A stretch of DNA of 52,014 nt from contig JAGWVU010000032.1 in the NCBI GenBank assembly GCA_018970725.1, forward strand, positions 1-52,014. Direction: 5' to 3'. The first letter of the stretch is position 1; the number at the start of each line of letters is the position of its first letter. Under the pieces are notes generated by a model that had not been told where the DNA came from, did not search any database, and worked only from the letters and a program-made list of their open reading frames with translations. Both the position numbers and the translations under genes were made by a program. Positions 6,992 through 41,864 of this stretch are shown here, piece after piece. This stretch comes from Verrucomicrobiota bacterium. GTDB lineage: Bacteria; Verrucomicrobiota; Verrucomicrobiia; Verrucomicrobiales; DEV007.

Positions 6992-7069
6992 TCTTCCGCT
7001 GGCGTGGAGCGCCCGACCGTGTAGACTCCAGCCCCGTTCAACCGAATCGAACCCCAACCTGACCCATCC

Positions 7070-7933
7070 ATGCCATTTCAATTCACCGGATTCGCCGACG
7101 AGGCGGAGAAGAGTCTCGAAGGACAGATCGCCACGCTCAAGGAGGCCGGGTGGTCGGCCGTGGAACTCCGCCTGATCGGGGGGAAAAACGTCTGTGACCT
7201 GACCGATGACGAATGGTCCCGCGTTTGGGAACGCCTCGGGACGGAGGGCATCCGGATCGTGGGATTCGGCGGGCAGATCGCGAATTGGGCGCGTCCCATC
7301 ACCCACGATTTCGCAGTGGATGTGGCCGAACTGAAGCGGGTCGCTCCGCGCCTTCGCCAGGTCGGCGCGAAGTTCCTCCGGATCATGTCCTACCCCAACA
7401 ACAAGGAGAATCCCTTGGACCGGGCGGCTTGGAGAGCGGAAGCGGTGCGCCGGATCCGTGAGCTGGCCCGGATCGCCGAGGGGGAGGGGGTCATCCTGGG
7501 GCATGAGAACTGCAACGGCTACGGCGCGGATCCGCAGGGATTCCTTGAATTGGCCGACGCGGTGGCCAGCCCGGCGTTCCGGCTGATTTTCGATACCGGG
7601 AACAACAGCCTCCACGATCACTCGCTGGAATCGACCTGGGATTATTACCAGACCTGTCGCGACCACATTGCCCACGTCCATGTGAAATGCGCCAAGCCCG
7701 GGCCTGACGGCGCCTTCGTCACCTGCCATGTGGACGAGGATCCGACCCAGTTGCGGATTTTCGCCGACCTCGAGCGCACCGGTTATGACGGGTGGTTGTC
7801 GATCGAGCCTCACCTCAAGGCGGCGATTCACGCCGGTCAGGATGTGGATGACAGTGGGGAGGCCCGTCTGGTGTGGGTGGAATTCGCCCGCCGTCTGGAG
7901 CGTTTGATCGCCGGTCTGCCCCGGGCTTCTTGA
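7070..7933 (+). CDS. Sugar phosphate isomerase/epimerase (xylose isomerase-like TIM barrel)
   Basis: The 287-residue product matches the AP endonuclease family 2/xylose isomerase-like TIM barrel fold. Recognisable metal-site elements include HENCNGYG near residue 145, FDTGNN near 175, HVHVK near 203, and a late SIEPH Glu near 243, all in the order expected for a divalent-metal barrel active site. There is no signal peptide, so the enzyme is cytoplasmic. Members act on keto or inositol sugars, often in poorly defined catabolic pathways; the substrate cannot be read from sequence. The gene stands between a membrane-protein gene and an SNF2 helicase gene with no obvious pathway partner. A second, Tat-exported member of the same superfamily is encoded at 41909-42838. 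Confidence 0.82.
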   Translation: MPFQFTGFADEAEKSLEGQIATLKEAGWSAVELRLIGGKNVCDLTDDEWSRVWERLGTEGIRIVGFGGQIANWARPITHDFAVDVAELKRVAPRLRQVGAKFLRIMSYPNNKENPLDRAAWRAEAVRRIRELARIAEGEGVILGHENCNGYGADPQGFLELADAVASPAFRLIFDTGNNSLHDHSLESTWDYYQTCRDHIAHVHVKCAKPGPDGAFVTCHVDEDPTQLRIFADLERTGYDGWLSIEPHLKAAIHAGQDVDDSGEARLVWVEFARRLERLIAGLPRAS

Positions 7934-7982
7934 GCCGCCGGGAGTCAACGAATCGCTTGACGATAGCACCGATCTTGGTGAT

Positions 7983-8003
7983 GTGTCAGGGTGGTCCTGA
8001 CAC
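7983..8003 (+). promoter_or_regulatory. Perfect 8-bp inverted repeat before the helicase gene
   Basis: GTGTCAGG (7983-7990) and CCTGACAC (7996-8003) form a perfect inverted repeat around a 5-base loop. It ends 14 bases before the ATG at 8018 and covers a possible GTG start at 7991. No T run follows, so an operator or a structure over the ribosome site is more likely than a terminator of the upstream gene. Confidence 0.4.
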
Positions 8004-33455: not shown

Positions 33456-33899
33456 TCAGGAGGCGCGTCCCTCGTCCACATCGATGTAGTGCGGGAGCGT
33501 CAGGATATCGGTGCGATTAGCCAAGCCGCTCTCCTCCTTGCGGCGGCTCAGAATGGCGGCGAGATGGTCGTTCCAGCCCAGTTTGGTCACGAAGGCATTC
33601 CAGACCAAACGGTCCGTGTCATTGAGAGGACGCCCCTGACTCTGGCACCAATCGAGGATTTCCTCGTCGCTTCCGCCTTGGAGGACTCTGGATTTCAGGC
33701 CCTCGTAACCCGTCGGCAGATGTAGGAATTCGACGCACCACGCGTCCTGACCTTTGCCCAGATTGGCCTGCAGTTCCTCCCACAGGTTTCCTTGTTCCGC
33801 GAGACGGATCTTGGCTAGCATCCTCGGGAAGTAGGCAAAACCGTTGACTTGCTGCAGCGGACTGCAGGGGAGAAGGGCCGGATCGGGTTTGGATGACAT
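33456..33899 (-). CDS. DUF5069 protein
   Basis: The 147-residue protein has the DUF5069 pattern FAYFPRMLAKIRLAEQGNL near residues 21-39 and later the Trp-rich ILDWCQSQGRP and NAFVTKLGWND stretches. This family is small, soluble and uncharacterised, common in Verrucomicrobia and related bacteria. No signal peptide or membrane segment is present. It is convergent with the VOC gene (7 bases apart) and divergent from the SnoaL-like gene, with 74 bases between the starts. Function unknown. Confidence 0.72.
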   Translation of the reverse strand: MSSKPDPALLPCSPLQQVNGFAYFPRMLAKIRLAEQGNLWEELQANLGKGQDAWCVEFLHLPTGYEGLKSRVLQGGSDEEILDWCQSQGRPLNDTDRLVWNAFVTKLGWNDHLAAILSRRKEESGLANRTDILTLPHYIDVDEGRAS

Positions 33900-33973
33900 G
33901 CTTCACGACTACACTGGCCGGTGCCGGAAGAAAAGTGTCGACCCCGGGGCGTTGGAGGGAATGTAGGGAAAAA

Positions 33974-34423
33974 ATGATGAAAGCTTTCCTCGCATCCTGT
34001 CTCCTCGTCTTCGTTCCGTTCGTGGCGGGGGCCGCGGAGCCGTCGTTGTCCGCCAAACTGCAGGCAGCCGACGATCTCCGGGTCCGCGTCACCAAGGCGG
34101 CGGATGCGGAGGGATTGCGCCACATCCTTTCCGGCGATTTGCGCTATGCGCACTCCAACGGTTTGGTGGATACCCGGGATTCGTTCATTGAGTTGGTCAC
34201 GTCAGGAAAGGTGAAGTATGAGACGGTCGAGTATGAGGAGCGGAGCTTCAGCTTCCCGGCCCCGAAGATCGCGCTGATGAGCGGACGGGCCCACGTCGTG
34301 GCCCAGACCGCGACCGGGGTCATGGACAATGTGCTCAGCTTCCTCTCGGTTTGGAGGGAAGAAGAGGACGGGACCTGGAGATTCCTTGCTTGGCAATCCT
34401 GCCGCTTGCCGCCGAAATCCTGA
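33974..34423 (+). CDS. Exported SnoaL-like (DUF4440) protein
   Basis: The product is 149 residues from ATG 33974 (a second ATG follows directly at 33977). A signal peptide covers about residues 1-22. The mature part matches the DUF4440/SnoaL-like alpha+beta-barrel fold: an N-terminal helix (LSAKLQAADDLRVRV), the GDLRYAHSNG segment typical of DUF4440, and a final WRFLAWQSCRLP strand. These folds bind small molecules or catalyse cyclisation or isomerisation, but many are of unknown role. It lies 74 bases before the condensing-enzyme operon in the same direction and might belong to it, although being exported argues against a biosynthetic step in the cytoplasm. Confidence 0.7.
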   Translation: MMKAFLASCLLVFVPFVAGAAEPSLSAKLQAADDLRVRVTKAADAEGLRHILSGDLRYAHSNGLVDTRDSFIELVTSGKVKYETVEYEERSFSFPAPKIALMSGRAHVVAQTATGVMDNVLSFLSVWREEEDGTWRFLAWQSCRLPPKS

Positions 34424-34497: not shown

Positions 34498-35508
34498 ATG
34501 TCCCCGGCGCCCTCGCGACTCCCCGTTTCGGTGCGGATTGCCGCCACCGGCCGCTACTTGCCGCCCGGGGTCGTGCTCTCGGAGGAGATCGATGCCCTCA
34601 CGGGGATGCCGTGCGGTTGGACGCACGCCCACACGGGGATCAGGGAACGCCGCCACGCGAAGGGAACCACGGCGGCGGAGATGGGGAAGCAGGCTTTGTT
34701 GGAGGCTTTGCCAGAGAGCGGGTGGGGCGGGGCCCGGCCCGATCTGCTGATTTCGGGGGCGGGAACGCCGCAACAACCGATTCCGTGCAACGCGGCGCTG
34801 TTGGCGGCGGAGATGGGTTGGGACGGAGTGGCTTGTTTTGATGTCAACGCGACATGTCTGGGCTTTGTTGCGGCTCTGCAGGTCGCCGCGGGATTTCTTG
34901 GCTGCGGGCTCTACCAGCGGATTGCCATCGTTTGTTCCGAGATCGCTTCGGCCGGCTTGAACTGGAAGGAACCGGAATCCGCCGGGTTGATGGGGGACGG
35001 AGCCGCGGCGGTGTTGCTCGAGCCATGCGCCGACGGATCTTCCGCCTTTCTTGGAGCCAGATTGGAAAATGCCCCCGAAGGAGTCGGATTCACGGAGATT
35101 CGCGGGGGAGGCACCGCCTTGCATGCCACCGCACACTGTCCGGGAAGCAACACGGAGCAGTTTCTCTTCCACATGAACGGCCCCGCGGTGTTCCGGTTGG
35201 CGTCGGCCAGAATCGAGCCCTTCCTGGCCAAATTGATTGGCACGGGGGAGGGGCGGTGGGAGGCGATTGATTGGGTGGTGCCGCATCAGGCGAGCCTGCC
35301 CGCCCTGACGCACATTCGGCGCCGGTTGCGGGTTCCGGTCTCGAAGTTCGTAGAGGACATTGAACGAACGGGGAATGTGATCGCGGCTTCGATCCCACTG
35401 ACCTTGCACGGGTTGATTCGGTCCGGACGGTTGCGGCGCGGGCAAACGGTCTTGTTTCTGGGCAGTTCAGCCGGATTTTCGTTGGGAGCGGCCTTGGTCC
35501 GGTATTGA
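34498..35508 (+). CDS. 3-oxoacyl-ACP synthase III-type condensing enzyme (FabH/OleA-like)
   Basis: The 336-residue thiolase-fold enzyme has the complete Cys-His-Asn triad of KAS III: Cys120 in NATCLGF, His263 in VVPHQAS and Asn293 in TGNVIAAS. A glycine-rich end (LGSSAGFSLGAAL) completes the fold. Enzymes of this type join an acyl-CoA to malonyl-ACP (FabH) or condense two acyl-CoAs (OleA). The next gene encodes an OleD-like reductase, so an OleA-like role making a beta-keto acid is favoured. The ATG at 34498 is preceded by a GGAAGG ribosome site; a longer frame has a non-homologous N-terminus. It leads a run of six tightly spaced genes ending at 40776. No acyl carrier protein gene is seen nearby. 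Confidence 0.88.
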   Translation: MSPAPSRLPVSVRIAATGRYLPPGVVLSEEIDALTGMPCGWTHAHTGIRERRHAKGTTAAEMGKQALLEALPESGWGGARPDLLISGAGTPQQPIPCNAALLAAEMGWDGVACFDVNATCLGFVAALQVAAGFLGCGLYQRIAIVCSEIASAGLNWKEPESAGLMGDGAAAVLLEPCADGSSAFLGARLENAPEGVGFTEIRGGGTALHATAHCPGSNTEQFLFHMNGPAVFRLASARIEPFLAKLIGTGEGRWEAIDWVVPHQASLPALTHIRRRLRVPVSKFVEDIERTGNVIAASIPLTLHGLIRSGRLRRGQTVLFLGSSAGFSLGAALVRY

Positions 35509-35520
35509 GGAGGAAGGATG
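35508..35520 (+). promoter_or_regulatory. Strong ribosome binding site for the OleD-like gene
   Basis: AGGAGGAAGG ends directly before the ATG at 35518 and begins just after the TGA of the condensing-enzyme gene (ends 35508). It is one of the strongest Shine-Dalgarno matches in the window and fixes this start. Confidence 0.7.
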
Positions 35521-36513
35521 GGCCCTGTTCTTGTCACCGGTGCCACCGGGTTCTTGGGAGGAGCCGCCGCGCGGGCGTTGGTTCGCGCGGGCGTTGCCGT
35601 GCGGGCCACGGGCCGGAGCCTTGCCGCCGGATCCGTTTTGCAACGGGAGGGCATTGCCTTCGTCCCCTGTGATTTGCCTGCGGAGGAAGCCGCCCTAGAC
35701 CGTTTGGTGGAGGGATGTGAGGGGGTCATTCATGCCGCCGCCTTGTCCGCTCCGTGGGGACGCCGCCGGGATTTTGAGCGCATCAATGTGCGGGGCACGG
35801 AAAAGGTGATCGCTGCCTGCCGGCGCGCGGGGGTCGGCAGGCTCGTGCATGTGTCTTCCCCCTCGGTGAACTTCGCGTTTCGCCACCAGTCGGGCTTGCG
35901 CGAGGAGACGCGATGGACGGAAGCTCCGGCGAACCCTTACATCGCCACCAAGCGCGAGGCGGAGCGTCTGGCACTCGAGGCCGGGGCGGTCGTGCTGCGC
36001 CCGCGCGCACTGTTTGGCCCCGGAGATACCACGCTGTTGCCCCGGTTGATCCGGGTGGCGCGCCGTGGCGTTTTTCCCTTGTTTGGGCCGGGAGACCCGC
36101 TCTTGGAATTAACTTGGATCGGGGACGCGGTGCGTGCGATCGTGCTGGCCATGGAGGCACCGGGGCATGGCGTTGGCAGGGTCTATCAGATCACGAGCGG
36201 GCAGCCTTTGCCCACGAGCCTGGTGCTCGGGACCTTGCTGCGGGCCTGCGGGCTCGAGGTCCGCTTCGTCAGGGTGCCGCTCCAGCCGGCGCTCGCCCTT
36301 GCCGGTGGGTTGGAGTGGATCTCCAACCTGGGCACCGCGGGAAGGTGGGAACCACCGCTGACGCGCTACGCCGTGGGCGCCCTGGGTTTCGAGCAGACCC
36401 ATGATTTGACGGCGGCCCGGAGGGATCTCGGATACGCTCCGGAAACCGAGATCCTCGACGCCCTGGTCCGCTGCGGGAAAGAATGGCGCGAGCAACAGGG
36501 GAGGGCACGTTGA
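35518..36513 (+). CDS. NAD(P)-dependent epimerase/3-beta-HSD-type reductase, OleD-like
   Basis: This 331-residue extended short-chain dehydrogenase has a nucleotide-binding GATGFLG at residues 8-14 and the catalytic Tyr141 and Lys145 in YIATK, with Ser113-Ser114 in VSSPS. The AALSAPWG segment (74-81), RINVRGTEKVI and HVSSPSVNF blocks match OleD-type 2-alkyl-3-oxoalkanoate reductases and 3-beta-hydroxysteroid dehydrogenase relatives. It would reduce the beta-keto acid made by the preceding condensing enzyme to a beta-hydroxy acid. The stop overlaps a TTG start of the next gene. The fold is secure; the OleD-like substrate is inferred from the family motif and the neighbour. Confidence 0.87.
   Translation: MGPVLVTGATGFLGGAAARALVRAGVAVRATGRSLAAGSVLQREGIAFVPCDLPAEEAALDRLVEGCEGVIHAAALSAPWGRRRDFERINVRGTEKVIAACRRAGVGRLVHVSSPSVNFAFRHQSGLREETRWTEAPANPYIATKREAERLALEAGAVVLRPRALFGPGDTTLLPRLIRVARRGVFPLFGPGDPLLELTWIGDAVRAIVLAMEAPGHGVGRVYQITSGQPLPTSLVLGTLLRACGLEVRFVRVPLQPALALAGGLEWISNLGTAGRWEPPLTRYAVGALGFEQTHDLTAARRDLGYAPETEILDALVRCGKEWREQQGRAR
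36497..36509 (+). promoter_or_regulatory. Ribosome binding site supporting a TTG start
   Basis: GGGGAGGG (36498-36505, containing GGAGG) sits about five bases before TTG at 36510, whose last two bases are shared with the TGA stop of the preceding gene. The alternative ATG at 36483 lacks such a site. Confidence 0.5.
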
Positions 36514-37301
36514 GCGGCTGGCGCTGGACCGTGTTGTCCGACGGCTGGACCCAGGCCCGTGAAGCCCTGCTGATCCGGGGCGGTTCCTGGCGGAAAATCG
36601 TGCGATGCGCCGCCACCGCGGTTCTTTTGGAAAGCGACAGGTTCGGCCCGGTCCTCTTTGATTGTGGCTATTCATCCCGCTTTGCCAGCGAGACGGCCCA
36701 ATGGCCGGGCCGGCTTTACCGTCACCTCGCTCCCGCCACCCTGACGGAGCCGGATGGCATCGCCGGACTCTTACAGAAGCGCGGGCTCGATCCCGGGAAA
36801 CTTCCCCGCCTGATCGTCTCCCACTGGCATGCGGATCACGTCGGCGGGCTCCGTGATTTCCCGAACGCGATCGTCCATGCGAGCCGGGAAGGATGGCAGG
36901 CGGTGTCCGGCCTACGGGGGATGGCAGCGCTGCGGCACGGGGTCCTTCCCGGGCTCCTGCCGGAGGATTTGCCAGACCGGCTGCGTTGGGTCGGTGAGGG
37001 AAGCGATCTTTTCGGGGATGGATCGATGGTCGTTCTCTCGCTGCCGGGGCATGCGGTCGGCCAGATCGGGATTCGCTTCCAAGCCGGGGATGGAAGCCCG
37101 GTGTTGCTGGCGGCCGACGCCTGTTGGTTGAGTGAAGGCTATCGTCTCAATCGGTCGCCGCACCCCATCACCGGCCTGCTCCAGGATCTGCGGGCCTGTC
37201 AGGCCACCGTGGAACGGTTGCACCGGCTCCACCTTGCCGAGCCTTCCTTGCGCATCCTCCCCTGTCATTGTCCCGAAACGCTCGCCCTCGTCCCGGTCTG
37301 A
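36510..37301 (+). CDS. Metallo-beta-lactamase-fold hydrolase
   Basis: The 263-residue product (TTG start; an ATG at 36483 would add nine residues) has the MBL metal site HWHADH at residues 105-110, a later His181 in LPGHAVGQ, and Asp203 in LAADACW. The order is typical of AHL lactonases and glyoxalase II-like hydrolases. It belongs to the quorum-quenching lactonase-like part of the superfamily rather than to beta-lactamases, as far as the motif goes. In this operon it occupies the position where a canonical ole cluster has OleB, an alpha/beta hydrolase. A lactone, thioester or ester bond in the product or an intermediate is therefore a reasonable substrate guess. No signal peptide, so it acts in the cytoplasm. 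Confidence 0.88.
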   Translation: MSGWRWTVLSDGWTQAREALLIRGGSWRKIVRCAATAVLLESDRFGPVLFDCGYSSRFASETAQWPGRLYRHLAPATLTEPDGIAGLLQKRGLDPGKLPRLIVSHWHADHVGGLRDFPNAIVHASREGWQAVSGLRGMAALRHGVLPGLLPEDLPDRLRWVGEGSDLFGDGSMVVLSLPGHAVGQIGIRFQAGDGSPVLLAADACWLSEGYRLNRSPHPITGLLQDLRACQATVERLHRLHLAEPSLRILPCHCPETLALVPV

Positions 37302-37305
37302 AAAG

Positions 37306-38613
37306 ATGGAACGGATCGTCATCCTCCGGCACTATCTCGAGGCCAGAAGAAGGTTCACCGGCTGGTCCGACCGTTGCGCCTTGGAGCGTTGGCAGGAAAA
37401 CCGGGTCCGCCGTCACCTCCGCAGAATCGCCGGAGGATCGCCTTATTTTGCGCGCAGGGTCCGGGACTTCGGAGTCGCGGCGTGGCGGGACTGGCCGGTC
37501 ACCCACAAGGCGGAGATGATGGCGCATTTCGATGACTGGAATACCGCCGGGATCCAGCTGCAGGAGGCCTTCGCGTTCGCGGAGCGGGCGGAACGCTCGA
37601 GGGATTTCTCGGGAACTTTTCGCGGCCTGACCGTGGGGTTGTCATCCGGCACCTCCGGGAGCCGCGGACTTTTTTTGGCCAGCGCGTCCGAGCGCCGCCG
37701 GTGGGCCGGCGTCTTGTTGGCTCGGGTCCTTCGGGGAACCCTGTGGTCGCACCGCCACCGGGTGGCGCTTTTTCTCCGGGCGGACAGCCCGTTGTATCAC
37801 ACCATCGGTTCGCGGCGCCTGCGTTTCGCGTTCTTCGATCTCCTGATGCCCTTGGAGGAACACTGGCCCCGGTTGCGGACCTTCTCCCCGACGGTGCTGG
37901 CCGGCCCGCCATCGGTTCTGACGGAGCTGGCGGCATCCGGCCGGGTCTTGGATCTGCTTCGCCCGCCGGCGATCCTCCTCGGCGTTGCCGATGTGCTCGA
38001 TCCGGTCGACGGGGAACGGATCCGGAGCGGCTTCGGAGTGGATCCCGGGCAGATTTATCAGGCCACGGAAGGGTTTCTCGCCGCCACCTGCCCGCAAGGC
38101 CGCTTTCACTGGAACGAGGATGTCATCGTGGTCCAGAAAGAGTGGGTCGATGCGGGGCGGACCCGTTACGTGCCCGTGTTGACTGACTTCCGGAGGTCCG
38201 TCCAGCCGATCGTCCGTTACCGGTTGGACGATGTCATTGTCCGGGGCGATCCTTCGCCGTGTCCCTGTGGAAGCCGATTCGAGGCGTTCGAGGGGATCGA
38301 GGGGCGGTGCGACGACTTGTTGCGAATCCCGGGGACCGATGGGCGGGGAGAGGTCACCATCTACCCGGACTTTGTGCGGCGCGCCTTCCTGCTGTCCGTT
38401 CCGCTCGGGACAGACTTCGCAGTCACCCAGATTTCCGCGGAGGAATGGGAGATTTCCGTGCGGCCTGCCGTTGACCTTGACGGGGTGAGGCAGCAAATCG
38501 GGGAACTCTGCCGGTTGCAGGGGGCGCGGTCTCCGAAACTGACCGAGGTTCCTTGGGAGCCGCCGCCTCTCCACGCCAAAAGGCGCCGGATCCGCCGCCG
38601 TATCGCACCATGA
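37306..38613 (+). CDS. F390-synthetase-like adenylate-forming enzyme
   Basis: This 435-residue protein belongs to the phenylacetate-CoA ligase/F390-synthetase-like branch of adenylating enzymes. The P-loop SSGTSGSRG is at 113-121, an A5-type IYQATEG at 250-256, and VRYRLDD (A7-like) at 303-309, with PCPCGSR before the second subdomain. These enzymes activate a carboxylate as an acyl-AMP. It replaces the longer OleC ligase expected in ole clusters and is short for the family that OleC belongs to, consistent with a truncated C-terminal domain. The start at ATG 37306 is four bases after the MBL gene; an upstream in-frame ATG is a shadow. The stop overlaps the ATP-grasp ATG (ATGA). Confidence 0.85.
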   Translation: MERIVILRHYLEARRRFTGWSDRCALERWQENRVRRHLRRIAGGSPYFARRVRDFGVAAWRDWPVTHKAEMMAHFDDWNTAGIQLQEAFAFAERAERSRDFSGTFRGLTVGLSSGTSGSRGLFLASASERRRWAGVLLARVLRGTLWSHRHRVALFLRADSPLYHTIGSRRLRFAFFDLLMPLEEHWPRLRTFSPTVLAGPPSVLTELAASGRVLDLLRPPAILLGVADVLDPVDGERIRSGFGVDPGQIYQATEGFLAATCPQGRFHWNEDVIVVQKEWVDAGRTRYVPVLTDFRRSVQPIVRYRLDDVIVRGDPSPCPCGSRFEAFEGIEGRCDDLLRIPGTDGRGEVTIYPDFVRRAFLLSVPLGTDFAVTQISAEEWEISVRPAVDLDGVRQQIGELCRLQGARSPKLTEVPWEPPPLHAKRRRIRRRIAP

Positions 38614-39671
38614 TCCGGACGATCCTTCTGACGGGAACAAGGGCTCCGGTGGCGCTCGATCTGGCTCGCCGCCTCCAGAACGACGGCATCCGGGTCATCG
38701 GAGCCGATTCGTGCCGGTTCCCGTTGGGGCGATTCTCCAAGGCATTCGCCGCACATTTCCGGGTTCCTCCGGCGCGCTGGGATCGGGAGGCGTTCGTCGG
38801 GGCATTGGCCGGCATCGTCTCCAGTCAGGCGGTCGATCTGGTTTGGCCGACTTGCGAGGAGGTTTTTTCGGTCGCGTCCCTGCGCGGGCGAATTCCCTGT
38901 CCGGTTTTTCTGCCTCCCGCCGAAGTGTTGCTTCGGTTGCACCACAAGCTGCGTTTCGCGGAGTGGACGCGGGAATTGGGGGGCGGGGTGACCGCTCCGC
39001 CATCCTGGGAGGCGAGGGACGCCCCACCGGGAGAGCATTTGATCTGGAAACGGAAGTATTCCCGTTTTGGTTGCCAAGTTCGGACCACGCGTCCGGAGGG
39101 CGAACTGGAGCCGTGGATGGCGCAGGTCCGTCTCGAGGGACCGGAATTTTGTGCCTGGGCACTCTGTCGCTCCGGAACGGTCCAAGCCTTGACCCAATAC
39201 CGGTGTCCCGTTCGATCGGAGAGGGGGGCGGGTTGTTGTTTCGAGCCGGTAGGGTCCGAGCCGGTGGCGGAATTCATGAGGCGGATCGCCAGGATCACCG
39301 AATATACGGGGAGCATCGCCTGTGATTTTCTGGGCCCCGCGCGAGACGGAAAGACTTACGTGCTCGAGTGTAACCCAAGGATGACCAGCGGGTTGCACCT
39401 GCTTGACCCGGGGTTCTCCGTGGGGGCGGCGCTTGCCGGTGATGTCGTGCCCGGGGCTCCGGGGCGGCTTGGGGCGCAGCTGCTGGTTCCCACCCTGTTG
39501 CGGGCGCCGCGGCTCGCCGATCCCGCCCGTGACGTGGTGGGAGCCCGGGGAGACCTTCGACCGGTTCTGGGGCAGTTTCTCTCCCTGGCGGAGTTCGCGG
39601 GGATCGCCTGCCGGCAAGGCATCTCCTTGAGCGAAGCCACCACTTGGGACCTGGAATACAATGGAGACTGA
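38610..39671 (+). CDS. ATP-grasp enzyme
   Basis: The 353-residue product has a biotin-carboxylase-type N-domain (LLTGTRAPVALDLARRL, residues 6-22) and an ATP-grasp core. Lysines near residues 147-149 (WKRKY) probably bind ATP, and Asp239 plus Glu253 and Asn255 in LECNPRMTSG are the Mg ligands. ATP-grasp ligases join a carboxylate, through an acyl phosphate, to an amine or thiol; many stand-alone members build peptides or amino-acid conjugates in natural-product clusters. It overlaps the adenylating enzyme gene by four bases and the next gene by 11, so all are coupled. The substrate cannot be named. Confidence 0.85.
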   Translation: MIRTILLTGTRAPVALDLARRLQNDGIRVIGADSCRFPLGRFSKAFAAHFRVPPARWDREAFVGALAGIVSSQAVDLVWPTCEEVFSVASLRGRIPCPVFLPPAEVLLRLHHKLRFAEWTRELGGGVTAPPSWEARDAPPGEHLIWKRKYSRFGCQVRTTRPEGELEPWMAQVRLEGPEFCAWALCRSGTVQALTQYRCPVRSERGAGCCFEPVGSEPVAEFMRRIARITEYTGSIACDFLGPARDGKTYVLECNPRMTSGLHLLDPGFSVGAALAGDVVPGAPGRLGAQLLVPTLLRAPRLADPARDVVGARGDLRPVLGQFLSLAEFAGIACRQGISLSEATTWDLEYNGD

Positions 39672-40776
39672 AGCGCGGATTGCGGATGAGCCGGTCGATC
39701 AAGCGCTCCGCGGTTGGTTCGGGCCGCTGCTGCGGCACGGCACCTTGTGGTGTGCGCCGAATCTCGAGACACGGTGCGCCTTCCTGCGCGTGGGAGACAG
39801 GGAATTTCCCCTCACCGTCAATGACCGGGAGTGGGAGAATTCCTGGGTCTGTTCCCCTTACACGCATTACGTCAGTTATGCCCGGGAGGAAGTCACCCGT
39901 GCCATGCCGGGCGCGATCGGGATTCCCTTCGCTCTGCTGCTGTCCGGTCTCGGCGCATGGTTCCGGGCGGCGCGTCTCAATCAAGTCGTCATGGTGAACA
40001 ATTGGTTGATGTCGACCAATCCCTGGCCGGACGAGGAACCCGTCTGGCTGAAGAAGGGGATCGAGGCGTTGCAGCGGCGTTGGCCGGATCATGCCCTCGT
40101 CTTCCGTTCTCTCAACGGGAAGGAAAACCCGGCCTTGCTCGAGGCGCTGCGCAGGTCGGGGGCCCGCCTCATTCCGAGCCGCCAAATCTGGTGGTTCGAC
40201 CCGCGGTCCGACCGGGTCCTCCATTCCCGTGATTTGCGCAAGGACGCACGGTTGTTGCAACGGAACGATCTCCAGCGGATCAGGCACGAAGAATTCCGGG
40301 AATCGGATTTTCCGCGTCTCGCCTTCTTGTATGAGGACCTTTATGGAAACAAATATTCCCGGCACAATCCGCGTTATACCGCAGAGTGGTTGCACCATCT
40401 CTGGGAGGGGAACCATCTCCGGTTCACCGCATTGCGGGAGGAAACGGGCCGGATCGCGGGGGTCGAAGCCTGCGGCTTGATCCACGGCGTCATGGTTTCT
40501 CCGATCGTCGGTTATGACCTTCAGGTTTCGCGGGACGCGGGTCTCTATCGGCGGCTCGCCGCGATCCCCGTTTTGGAGGCCAGGAAACTCGGCGTTCCGC
40601 TCAATCTGAGCGCCGGAGTGGGCCGCTTCAAGGCGCTGCGCGGGGGGGAACCGATCATGGAATCCATCGCGGTGATCGACTCCCATTTGCCGATTGGGAG
40701 ACGGGTGCCATGGCGCTTCATCGAGGGCTTGAGCCGGGGACTGCTCGCGCCGGTGGTCCGGCGGCTCAAACTCTGA
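39661..40776 (+). CDS. GNAT/FemAB-like acyl or aminoacyl transferase
   Basis: The 371-residue protein starts 11 bases before the end of the ATP-grasp gene. Its middle and C-terminal parts (about residues 95-360) look like the double-GNAT fold of FemAB-like or Acetyltransf_6 proteins. Supporting stretches are FPRLAFLYEDLYGNKYSRHNP near residue 220 and GVEACGLIHGVMVSPIVGYD near 265, which resemble transferase strands around a CoA or aminoacyl-tRNA site. The N-terminal about 90 residues are unusual. A role adding an acyl or aminoacyl group to the product of the preceding enzymes is inference from position. Last gene of the coupled operon. Confidence 0.6.
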   Translation: METEARIADEPVDQALRGWFGPLLRHGTLWCAPNLETRCAFLRVGDREFPLTVNDREWENSWVCSPYTHYVSYAREEVTRAMPGAIGIPFALLLSGLGAWFRAARLNQVVMVNNWLMSTNPWPDEEPVWLKKGIEALQRRWPDHALVFRSLNGKENPALLEALRRSGARLIPSRQIWWFDPRSDRVLHSRDLRKDARLLQRNDLQRIRHEEFRESDFPRLAFLYEDLYGNKYSRHNPRYTAEWLHHLWEGNHLRFTALREETGRIAGVEACGLIHGVMVSPIVGYDLQVSRDAGLYRRLAAIPVLEARKLGVPLNLSAGVGRFKALRGGEPIMESIAVIDSHLPIGRRVPWRFIEGLSRGLLAPVVRRLKL

Positions 40777-40892: not shown

Positions 40893-41864
40893 ATGGACGC
40901 GCCCAGCCAATTCATCTATGCCATCACCACCGGGCGCAGCGGAACCGCGTTTCTTGCCCGGTTGCTGCATCTCAATCTGGCCGGAGCTGAGGTCCATCAC
41001 GAGTTCAAGGGATTCCCCCACTTCGGCCGCCGGACCCCCGACGCCTCGCAATTGACCACGTTCAACCACGTGGGGAATGTTCCCGAGGTGCGTTCCTTCT
41101 GGCGCAAGAAGTTCAACGAGGACCAGAAATCACGGGCCAGGGTTTATGCGGAGACGGCCCATGTCCACGCGAAGGCCGGGCTGGTGGAGAATCTCGATCT
41201 CTTGCCGGCGTCCGCGCGGATCGATCTGATTCGTCTTGAGCGGAATCCCTTTGAGACCTACTGGGCTCATTTGAGCCGGTTCGACTTCATTCAACCGCAG
41301 TTCACTTGGTTGTTCACCTTGGATGCCCGCTACCCAAATGTGATCGTCGATCCGTTACCCTACGCGGCGCATCGGCTCTTCGGGCAGGCACTTTGGTATG
41401 TTCACGAGATGGAGGCCCGGGGCGCCTACTACCAACGCCTGCTGGCCGCCGATCCCCGGGTTCACGTCCACAAGGTCCGTTTCGAGGACCTGGTCAATCC
41501 GTTCGGGGCGGCCACGTTGCTTCGCGCGTTGGGTCATGGCTGTGATCCGGCGGAAGTCGAACTTCCCCGGCCTTCCGCTTCGGTGAAACGCTCGTCGTTG
41601 GGGGATGCGGATCGGGATCTGGCGGAGACGATTTTTGCCGAGTTGCCTTGTGATACGGAGGAGGTTGGTTCGCGCTATCACGATGAAGGTCTGCGGCTGG
41701 GGGCTCCCGTGCACCTGTTTTTCCACGAATCCGGGGCCCTGCAACCGGAGTCTCTCTCCGTGCTCCCGGGACAGAGCAAGAAGGGGGCGGCCCCGGCCCG
41801 GGCGGGCGGCTTGAAGACACGTGGATTGTCCGGAGGGGCAGGGGATGTGGGGCTCTCCAGCTGA
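40893..41864 (+). CDS. Sulfotransferase-like P-loop protein
   Basis: The 323-residue protein has a PAPS-type P-loop TTGRSGT at residues 12-18 and a later IRLERNPFETYWAHL block near 109-124, where the 3'-phosphate-binding Arg/Ser of sulfotransferases lies. This supports transfer of sulfate from PAPS to an unknown acceptor. The C-terminal about 40 residues are Gly/Ala/Lys-rich and probably disordered. It is 116 bases after the GNAT-like gene, in the same direction, so it may be under its own control or part of the same locus. The gap is AT-richer than the surroundings and may hold a promoter, but no convincing pair of hexamers was found. Confidence 0.75.
   Translation: MDAPSQFIYAITTGRSGTAFLARLLHLNLAGAEVHHEFKGFPHFGRRTPDASQLTTFNHVGNVPEVRSFWRKKFNEDQKSRARVYAETAHVHAKAGLVENLDLLPASARIDLIRLERNPFETYWAHLSRFDFIQPQFTWLFTLDARYPNVIVDPLPYAAHRLFGQALWYVHEMEARGAYYQRLLAADPRVHVHKVRFEDLVNPFGAATLLRALGHGCDPAEVELPRPSASVKRSSLGDADRDLAETIFAELPCDTEEVGSRYHDEGLRLGAPVHLFFHESGALQPESLSVLPGQSKKGAAPARAGGLKTRGLSGGAGDVGLSS

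Follow-up and report, generated by a model that had tools for sequence, protein, structure and literature searches.

A widespread four-enzyme operon with exchangeable partner genes, found in a Verrucomicrobiota bacterium, as a candidate modular lipid-assembly pathway

What does a compact run of six biosynthetic genes in a Verrucomicrobiota bacterium make, and is it a variant of the bacterial olefin (ole) pathway, as its initial annotation proposed? The genes lie in a stretch of 52,014 nucleotides (the window; contig JAGWVU010000032.1 of assembly GCA_018970725.1), which is an entire contig of a 4.9 Mb draft genome. We propose that the locus encodes one form of a modular pathway for lipid assembly, with a four-enzyme core and interchangeable tailoring genes, a reading to which we assign a probability of roughly 55%. 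Its likeness to the olefin pathway is in outline only. Six open reading frames (ORFs), all on the plus strand and nearly end to end, span positions 34498–40776, exactly where they had been annotated:

34498–35508, plus strand: ketoacyl synthase III (KAS III) condensing enzyme of the clade that contains MxnB and CorB, core gene 1 (PF08541/PF08545, tree, C120/H263/N293)
35518–36513, plus strand: OleD-related reductase of the extended short-chain dehydrogenase/reductase (SDR) type, core gene 2 (NF042422 below cut-off, S113/Y141/K145)
36483–37301 (alternative TTG start at 36510), plus strand: metallo-beta-lactamase (MBL)-fold hydrolase resembling N-acyl-homoserine lactone (AHL) lactonases, core gene 3 (PF00753, HxHxDH)
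37306–38613, plus strand: PaaK/F390-synthetase-like adenylating enzyme, core gene 4 (TIGR02304 over cut-off)
38610–39671, plus strand: ATP-grasp enzyme, add-on module (PRK06849 below cut-off, AlphaFold model)
39661–40776, plus strand: tandem-GNAT transferase resembling FemX, MprF and Sbb17, add-on module (AlphaFold model, PF13480 in homologues)

The genes had been described as spaced by gaps or overlaps of under 12 bases. This is correct for a 9-nt gap between the KAS and reductase genes, a 4-nt gap between the MBL and adenylating enzyme genes, and overlaps of 4 nt (adenylating enzyme and ATP-grasp) and 11 nt (ATP-grasp and GNAT-like). For the reductase–MBL junction it is correct only if the MBL gene starts at TTG 36510 (4-nt overlap, TTGA), the ATG at 36483 giving an overlap of 31 nt. 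Promoter and terminator scans of the locus gave no signal above the shuffled level.

The strongest evidence that these genes work together is their linkage across genomes. A search of a collection of 84,980 species with the adenylating-enzyme alignment returned 278 relatives, of which the best 80 loci were kept, so that this sample leans to near relatives. In these loci, which carry 12 phylum labels, profile hidden Markov models (E ≤ 1e-8) found the KAS in 77, the reductase in 79, the MBL enzyme in 77, the ATP-grasp enzyme in 61 and the GNAT-like protein in 56; 75 loci had some match to each of the four core genes, and 52 had one to each of the six. With at least 60% of each model covered, the counts were 71 and 47, and in all 71 strict loci the four core genes share one strand. 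The exceptions to the strict count are three short or cut records (L096, L117, L119), two loci in which no MBL gene was found (L063, L082), one with a reductase fragment at the contig end and the ligase on the opposite strand (L094) and three Brevibacillus loci (L067, L070, L072; near 7042–7992) in which a reductase fragment covering 44% of the model runs into the MBL gene.

A less biased sample, 197 genomes from the family of G422 (the genome of Paenibacillus profundus locus L056), gave the same picture. TIGR02304 was matched over its cut-off in 71 genomes and a cassette-type KAS at E ≤ 1e-100 in 70: both occurred together in 70, the adenylating enzyme alone in one, the KAS alone in none and neither in 126 (Fisher p = 2.6e-53, without correction for relatedness). 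In 70 of 70 genomes the two genes share contig and strand, the KAS upstream of the adenylating enzyme and 1.9–4.8 kb from it. The lone adenylating enzyme (G648:C47:243178-244470) had no cassette KAS in its genome at the threshold used. A second KAS lies on a separate contig in genome G554, and one in-frame stop is reported for five of the KAS matches in this sample. The genes are conserved together much more often than chance would allow, and their linkage shows that they form a functional unit; the neighbourhood comparison thus bears out the initial view of a real, conserved biosynthetic operon. Carriers include Paenibacillus and its kin, Streptococcus, Chlamydiota, gut metagenome bacteria and Escherichia coli; no close relative of the locus was found on viral contigs.

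The catalytic motifs of the core are intact throughout. Residue counts refer to alignments that contain the window protein, a single E. coli copy and the homologues taken from the fetched loci, with near-identical sequences retained. The triad Cys120/His263/Asn293 of the condensing enzyme, correctly named at the outset, is kept in 80/80 aligned homologues. The solved chains nearest to the KAS profile are 4v2p, which we take to be MxnB (368 bits), CorB 4yuc (361 bits), FabH 2ebd (289 bits) and OleA 3row (126 bits). In a quick maximum-likelihood tree (45 rows, rooted on OleA), in which support was moderate and the long FabH and OleA branches were flagged by the program, 37 cassette rows group with MxnB and CorB (81 in the Shimodaira–Hasegawa-like approximate likelihood-ratio test, SH-aLRT), four OleA rows split off at 100 and FabH stands apart at 99. 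MxnB and CorB nest inside a small group of cassette enzymes (SH-aLRT 96), which means that the cassette rows do not form one clade.

The grouping with OleA on which the initial annotation relied is contradicted by this tree and by the active site. OleA uses Glu117 as its catalytic base, and MxnB and CorB carry Val there, according to PMC4578411. The corresponding residue is Ile in 53, Leu in 20, Met in 6 and Val in one of 80 aligned cassette copies; a smaller alignment has Glu in 4/4 OleA rows and Ile, Leu, Met or Val in 53/53 cassette rows. Without this base, the KAS probably does not enolise a plain acyl chain in the manner of OleA, and a beta-ketoacyl or malonyl partner is the more likely choice. 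With MxnB and CorB, the enzymes of myxopyronin and corallopyronin synthesis, it shares a clade, a hydrophobic residue at the OleA Glu position and Gln93, which is found in 80/80 copies. PMC5724707 gives the MxnB triad as C121/H264/N292, matching the Cys-His-Asn of the window enzyme, and the MxnB and CorB substrates as polyketide chains bound to carrier proteins. In clade (at moderate support), in its Cys-His-Asn triad and in the absence of Glu at OleA position 117, the window KAS is thus a ketosynthase of the MxnB/CorB type. Its setting is unlike theirs, as it is linked to three other core enzymes and no polyketide synthase was seen. A housekeeping FabH role is ruled out by the score against TIGR00747 (186.9 bits, cut-off 292.1) and by a separate FabH on contig C79 of the same genome (415.6 bits, over the cut-off). 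Nothing in that genome exceeded the cut-off of NF006720, the model that canonical OleA passes (463.2 versus 285 bits).

The reductase carries the AALSAPWG motif reported for it, Tyr141 and Lys145 in 78/78 homologues and S113 in 76/78 (two gaps). Against the OleD model NF042422 it scores 202.7 bits, where the cut-off is 580. In a quick tree of 54 rows, the 14 OleD and OleD-like rows (four over the cut-off, one from an OleA locus and nine others) form a clade at 100 that holds no cassette rows, and two Chloroflexota cassette reductases (L111, L113) join this clade at 94. The cassette reductases and OleD are thus of common descent, but the window protein is not itself an OleD; the proposed OleD grouping was therefore right as to kinship and wrong as to membership. 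Together, the trees and the KAS motif rule out OleA and OleD as the identities of the first two enzymes. OleD-like proteins are a frequent find in the phylum, with matches at E ≤ 1e-100 in 50 of 240 genomes and none over the cut-off, and no KAS match lay beside such genes in nine fetched regions.

The remaining two core enzymes also belong to families other than those of the canonical pathway. The OleA of the canonical ole locus L175 matches the crystal sequences 3fk5, 3row and others at 622–632 bits and passes the NCBIfam cut-off, and its neighbours are an alpha/beta hydrolase and the olefin beta-lactone synthetase OleC (NF045786, 1007.6 versus 900 bits). The window ligase has no PF00501 match and belongs to TIGR02304, and the window hydrolase is a PF00753 protein of the MBL fold, so that neither is an OleC or an OleB, as had been recognized. 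The adenylating-enzyme and MBL profiles matched no ORF in seven OleD or OleD-like regions (five with OleA, L175 included). What the two systems have in common is the kinds of enzyme: both combine a condensing enzyme of the thiolase fold and an OleD-related SDR with a hydrolase and an adenylating ligase that uses ATP. Pfam and NCBIfam agree with the family labels first given to all four core proteins, save for the closeness of the KAS to OleA.

The nearest solved chains to the MBL profile are AHL lactonases (at most 101 bits), among them AiiA, AttM and GcL, with which the enzyme has its metal ligands in common: H114, H116, D118 and H119 are present in 79/79 homologues and H190 and D212 in 77/79 (two gaps). 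It differs in scoring far below the family cut-offs of AttM and AiiA (67.3 versus 390 and 47 versus 375 bits), and Trp215, found in 76/79, occupies what is presumably the position of the AiiA catalytic Tyr. The adenylating enzyme scores 385.8 bits against TIGR02304 (F390 synthetase-related protein; cut-off 251.9), is the only TIGR02304 match in its genome and has PaaK-type ligases as its nearest solved relatives. In numbering without Met1, S112, G114, T115, G117, Y250-Q251, T253-E254-G255 and D308 are found in 83/83 homologues and K424 in 81/83 (two gaps). Cys261, His267, Cys318 and Cys320 are likewise kept in 83/83 and are perhaps a zinc site.

The last two genes form an optional module and not part of the core: the GNAT-like gene never occurs without the ATP-grasp gene (56/56 loci), and the latter occurs without the former in five. 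Their initial labels had weak or no Pfam matches behind them and are upheld by predicted folds. The ATP-grasp enzyme scores below cut-off against PRK06849 (209.7 bits, cut-off 406) and Pfam (20.5 bits, cut-off 23.2), and its AlphaFold model (predicted local distance difference test, pLDDT, 94.3) is closest to ATP-grasp ligases and carboxylases. It matches 2pn1, GAR synthetase, biotin carboxylase and PylC at Z 24.9 to 23.0 (VIA-align), and E253 and N255 are kept in 61/63 homologues, so that both fold and catalytic residues are those of an ATP-grasp enzyme. Because many ATP-grasp folds score within about 2 Z units of one another, the model identifies the superfamily and nothing narrower, and a reading as a PylC in particular was rejected.

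The GNAT-like protein has no Pfam or NCBIfam match of its own and no sequence relative was found for it in the PDB; 19 of 46 homologues match PF13480 at E ≤ 0.1. Its model (pLDDT 96.0) is predicted to have a tandem-GNAT, Fem-type fold: the nearest structures (VIA-align) are Sbb17, an aminoacyl-tRNA-dependent peptide synthase (Z 17.3, root-mean-square deviation 3.4, 259 residues aligned), FemX (Z 16.6; 3.7, 274) and MprF (Z 14.9; 3.6, 254), followed at Z ≤ 13.1 by mycothiol synthase, other GNATs and N-myristoyltransferases. The fold predicted for most of the protein is thus shared with aminoacyl-tRNA-dependent transferases, a likeness that does not extend to showing the donor. Enzymes with FemX/MprF-like folds aminoacylate lipids or peptidoglycan.

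Other carriers have different partner genes. A tblastn search of plasmids retrieved an E. coli record in which the genes for the KAS, reductase, MBL enzyme and adenylating enzyme are followed by those for a PAP2 protein, a ‘sterol desaturase family’ protein and an acyl-CoA desaturase; Pfam assigns the three partners to PAP2_3, FA_hydroxylase and FA_desaturase. The core proteins of strain JJ2434 are 39, 37, 34 and 40% identical to those of the window, in the order just given. Of 5426 complete E. coli genomes, 672 contain DNA matching the seven-gene operon, and in 671 the match covers at least 80% of it; E. coli Nissle and the reference strain ATCC 25922 are among the carriers. The position was checked in four chromosomes (JJ2434, CFT073, Nissle and ATCC 25922): in each, narI is on one side of the operon and the tRNA-Tyr genes that precede purU are on the other. 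The corresponding interval of K-12 MG1655 lacks the operon and contains ychS, rttR/tpr and two tRNA-Tyr genes. Phage records gave no match to the E. coli operon. The operon of E. coli KE48, recorded as lying on a plasmid (L182, NZ_CP141085.1 80290–97447), is surrounded by narGHJI, purU, rssAB and galU; as these are the surroundings found in chromosomes, the record may be a misassembled chromosome piece.

We clustered the flanking ORFs of the 80 loci and scanned representatives with Pfam. An extra short-chain dehydrogenase cluster occurs in 22 loci, all Bacillota by their record titles (L082 scanned), a Rieske/VanA-type oxygenase cluster in eight (L109 scanned), an EryCIII/GT28-like glycosyltransferase cluster in nine, all five Streptococcus loci included (L128 scanned), and a GT21-type cluster in three (L088, L094, L116; L088 scanned), with a GT2/GT21-type gene in L115; PAP2_3 occurs in L073 and L125 (both scanned). 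The other scanned neighbours, among them RtcB, GH18, a GDSL lipase and ABC transporter parts, look incidental. Of the plasmid copies, that of Paenibacillus urinalis has all six genes and an SDR by annotation, and that of Rhizobium sp. BT03 has all six and a Rieske gene, with the ATP-grasp gene on the opposite strand. A plasmid of Pseudomonas sp. Leaf58 (L184) may carry a rearranged form of the cassette: its annotation lists KAS III, oxidoreductase, MBL and F390-synthetase-related genes that are interspersed with NYN-domain and hypothetical genes. A Noviherbaspirillum locus (L110, 9275–12283) encodes, directly after the core, a 1002-residue protein in which about 400 residues without a Pfam match are followed by an AMP-binding domain and one for phosphopantetheine attachment; this hints that the pathway can involve a carrier protein.

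Combining these findings, we propose the following pathway, each step of which we infer. The KAS would load an acyl chain on Cys120 and, since it has no counterpart of the base with which OleA enolises its substrate, would condense the chain with a beta-ketoacyl or malonyl thioester. The reductase would then turn the beta-keto group into a hydroxyl. The families of these two enzymes suggest a beta-hydroxy acyl product; the annotated claim that OleA and OleD make a beta-hydroxy acid is an analogy. The MBL enzyme would cleave the thioester (or a lactone) to free a long-chain acid, whose carboxylate the adenylating enzyme would activate and join to an acceptor. In the window, the ATP-grasp and FemX/MprF-like enzymes would probably attach amino acids as a head group, and elsewhere glycosyltransferase, PAP2, hydroxylase or desaturase genes would replace this amino-acid module. 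Partners such as a fatty-acid hydroxylase, a desaturase, PAP2 proteins, GT21-type glycosyltransferases and an MprF-like transferase argue for a lipid with exchangeable decoration, probably a membrane or exported lipid off the standard glycerophospholipid route. The earlier prediction of a lipid, ester or amide in place of an olefin fits this part of the picture. A further and more tentative proposal, for which we would not offer even odds, is that the product is a new lipid class with a hydroxylated KAS III-derived acid backbone and exchangeable head groups (amino acid, sugar or phosphate-related), built by the four-enzyme core, horizontally spread among many phyla and present, without having been assigned, in E. 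coli Nissle and in some 12% of the complete genomes of that species. The GNAT, PAP2, hydroxylase and GT21 genes raised the idea of a sphingolipid-type pathway; it was rejected, as no alpha-oxoamine synthase appeared when 20 flanking proteins and the three partners from E. coli were scanned, and the literature search gave no link among the titles listed.

Several points weigh against the lipid-assembly proposal. Product, substrate and activity are predicted from genes, the order of the MBL and adenylating steps is a guess, and the folds nearest to the ATP-grasp model are generic. No carrier protein appears in the flanking clusters scanned, a scan that covered larger ORFs, apart from the domain fused in the Noviherbaspirillum protein. 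Not every core step is indispensable, given two Paenibacillus loci without the MBL gene and the three Brevibacillus reductase fragments, and since partner genes vary by lineage the products could be chemically unlike. The cassette ligase is rare in its own phylum (over the cut-off in two of 387 genomes); among 38 relatives, four genomes besides that of the window have a strong ligase match. Weak TIGR02304-like genes in G217 and G404 (L050, L051) were rejected as cassettes because they have no cassette partners. Finally, MxnB and CorB make pyrones (PMC4578411, PMC5724707), so that the KAS clade alone implies no lipid.

This last point leads to the chief rival, which we nevertheless regard as unlikely: the KAS would fuse a beta-ketoacyl and an acyl chain as MxnB and CorB do, and the other enzymes would trim and decorate a soluble heterocycle, either a pyrone or a similar small signal or antibiotic. 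The closest solved relatives of the KAS and the invariant Gln93 speak for such chemistry. However, the nesting of MxnB and CorB among cassette enzymes, albeit in a quick tree, suggests that the pyrone role may be derived, a dedicated reductase would remove the keto group that a pyrone needs, and partners of the fatty-acid hydroxylase, desaturase, PAP2 and GT21 types are at odds with a soluble product.

The Ole-analogous beta-lactone pathway appears improbable. The KAS would make a 2-alkyl-3-keto acid from two acyl-CoAs, the reductase would convert it into a hydroxy acid, the adenylating enzyme would close the beta-lactone as OleC does and the MBL enzyme would open or guard it. The four core activities do parallel OleA, OleD, OleC and OleB, the reductase is OleD-related, with the Chloroflexota copies nearest to the OleD clade, and the MBL enzyme is lactonase-like. 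Against this stand the separation of the KAS from OleA and the replacement of Glu117 in 80/80 copies, the place of the reductase outside the OleD clade and the failure of the ligase and hydrolase profiles to match anything in the seven OleD or OleD-like regions. A detoxification or salvage operon, degrading or recycling lactones or acyl chains instead of making a product, can be all but set aside: the MBL enzyme does resemble AHL lactonases, and imported acids could be substrates of the reductase and the adenylating enzyme, but an intact Cys-His-Asn KAS in every aligned copy and glycosyltransferase, desaturase and FemX-like partners point to synthesis.

Two genes adjoin the operon in the window. 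The DUF4440 gene just upstream (33893–34423, plus strand) and a downstream gene without a Pfam or NCBIfam match (40893–41864, plus strand) also flank the six genes in a locus of the same genus (L046) and not in another (L047). Among the loci examined, the DUF4440 gene adjoins the operon only in L046 and its twin record L052. The start of the downstream protein, P-loop-like TTGRSGTAFLARLL, presumably resembles sulfotransferases.

The components of the operon are annotated singly in public records, and no description of it was found among the titles listed in an open-access full-text search, whose scope lay outside most subscription journals and bioRxiv. The Pbo cluster (PMC8473136) is unrelated. 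What has been found is a tightly conserved pathway, catalytically intact to judge by its motifs and with no assigned product that we could find, in well-studied bacteria that include E. coli Nissle and ATCC 25922. The TIGR02304 family, named only ‘F390 synthetase-related’, thereby gains a pathway context. If the product is indeed a lipid, it has escaped notice in bacteria that are among the most intensively studied.

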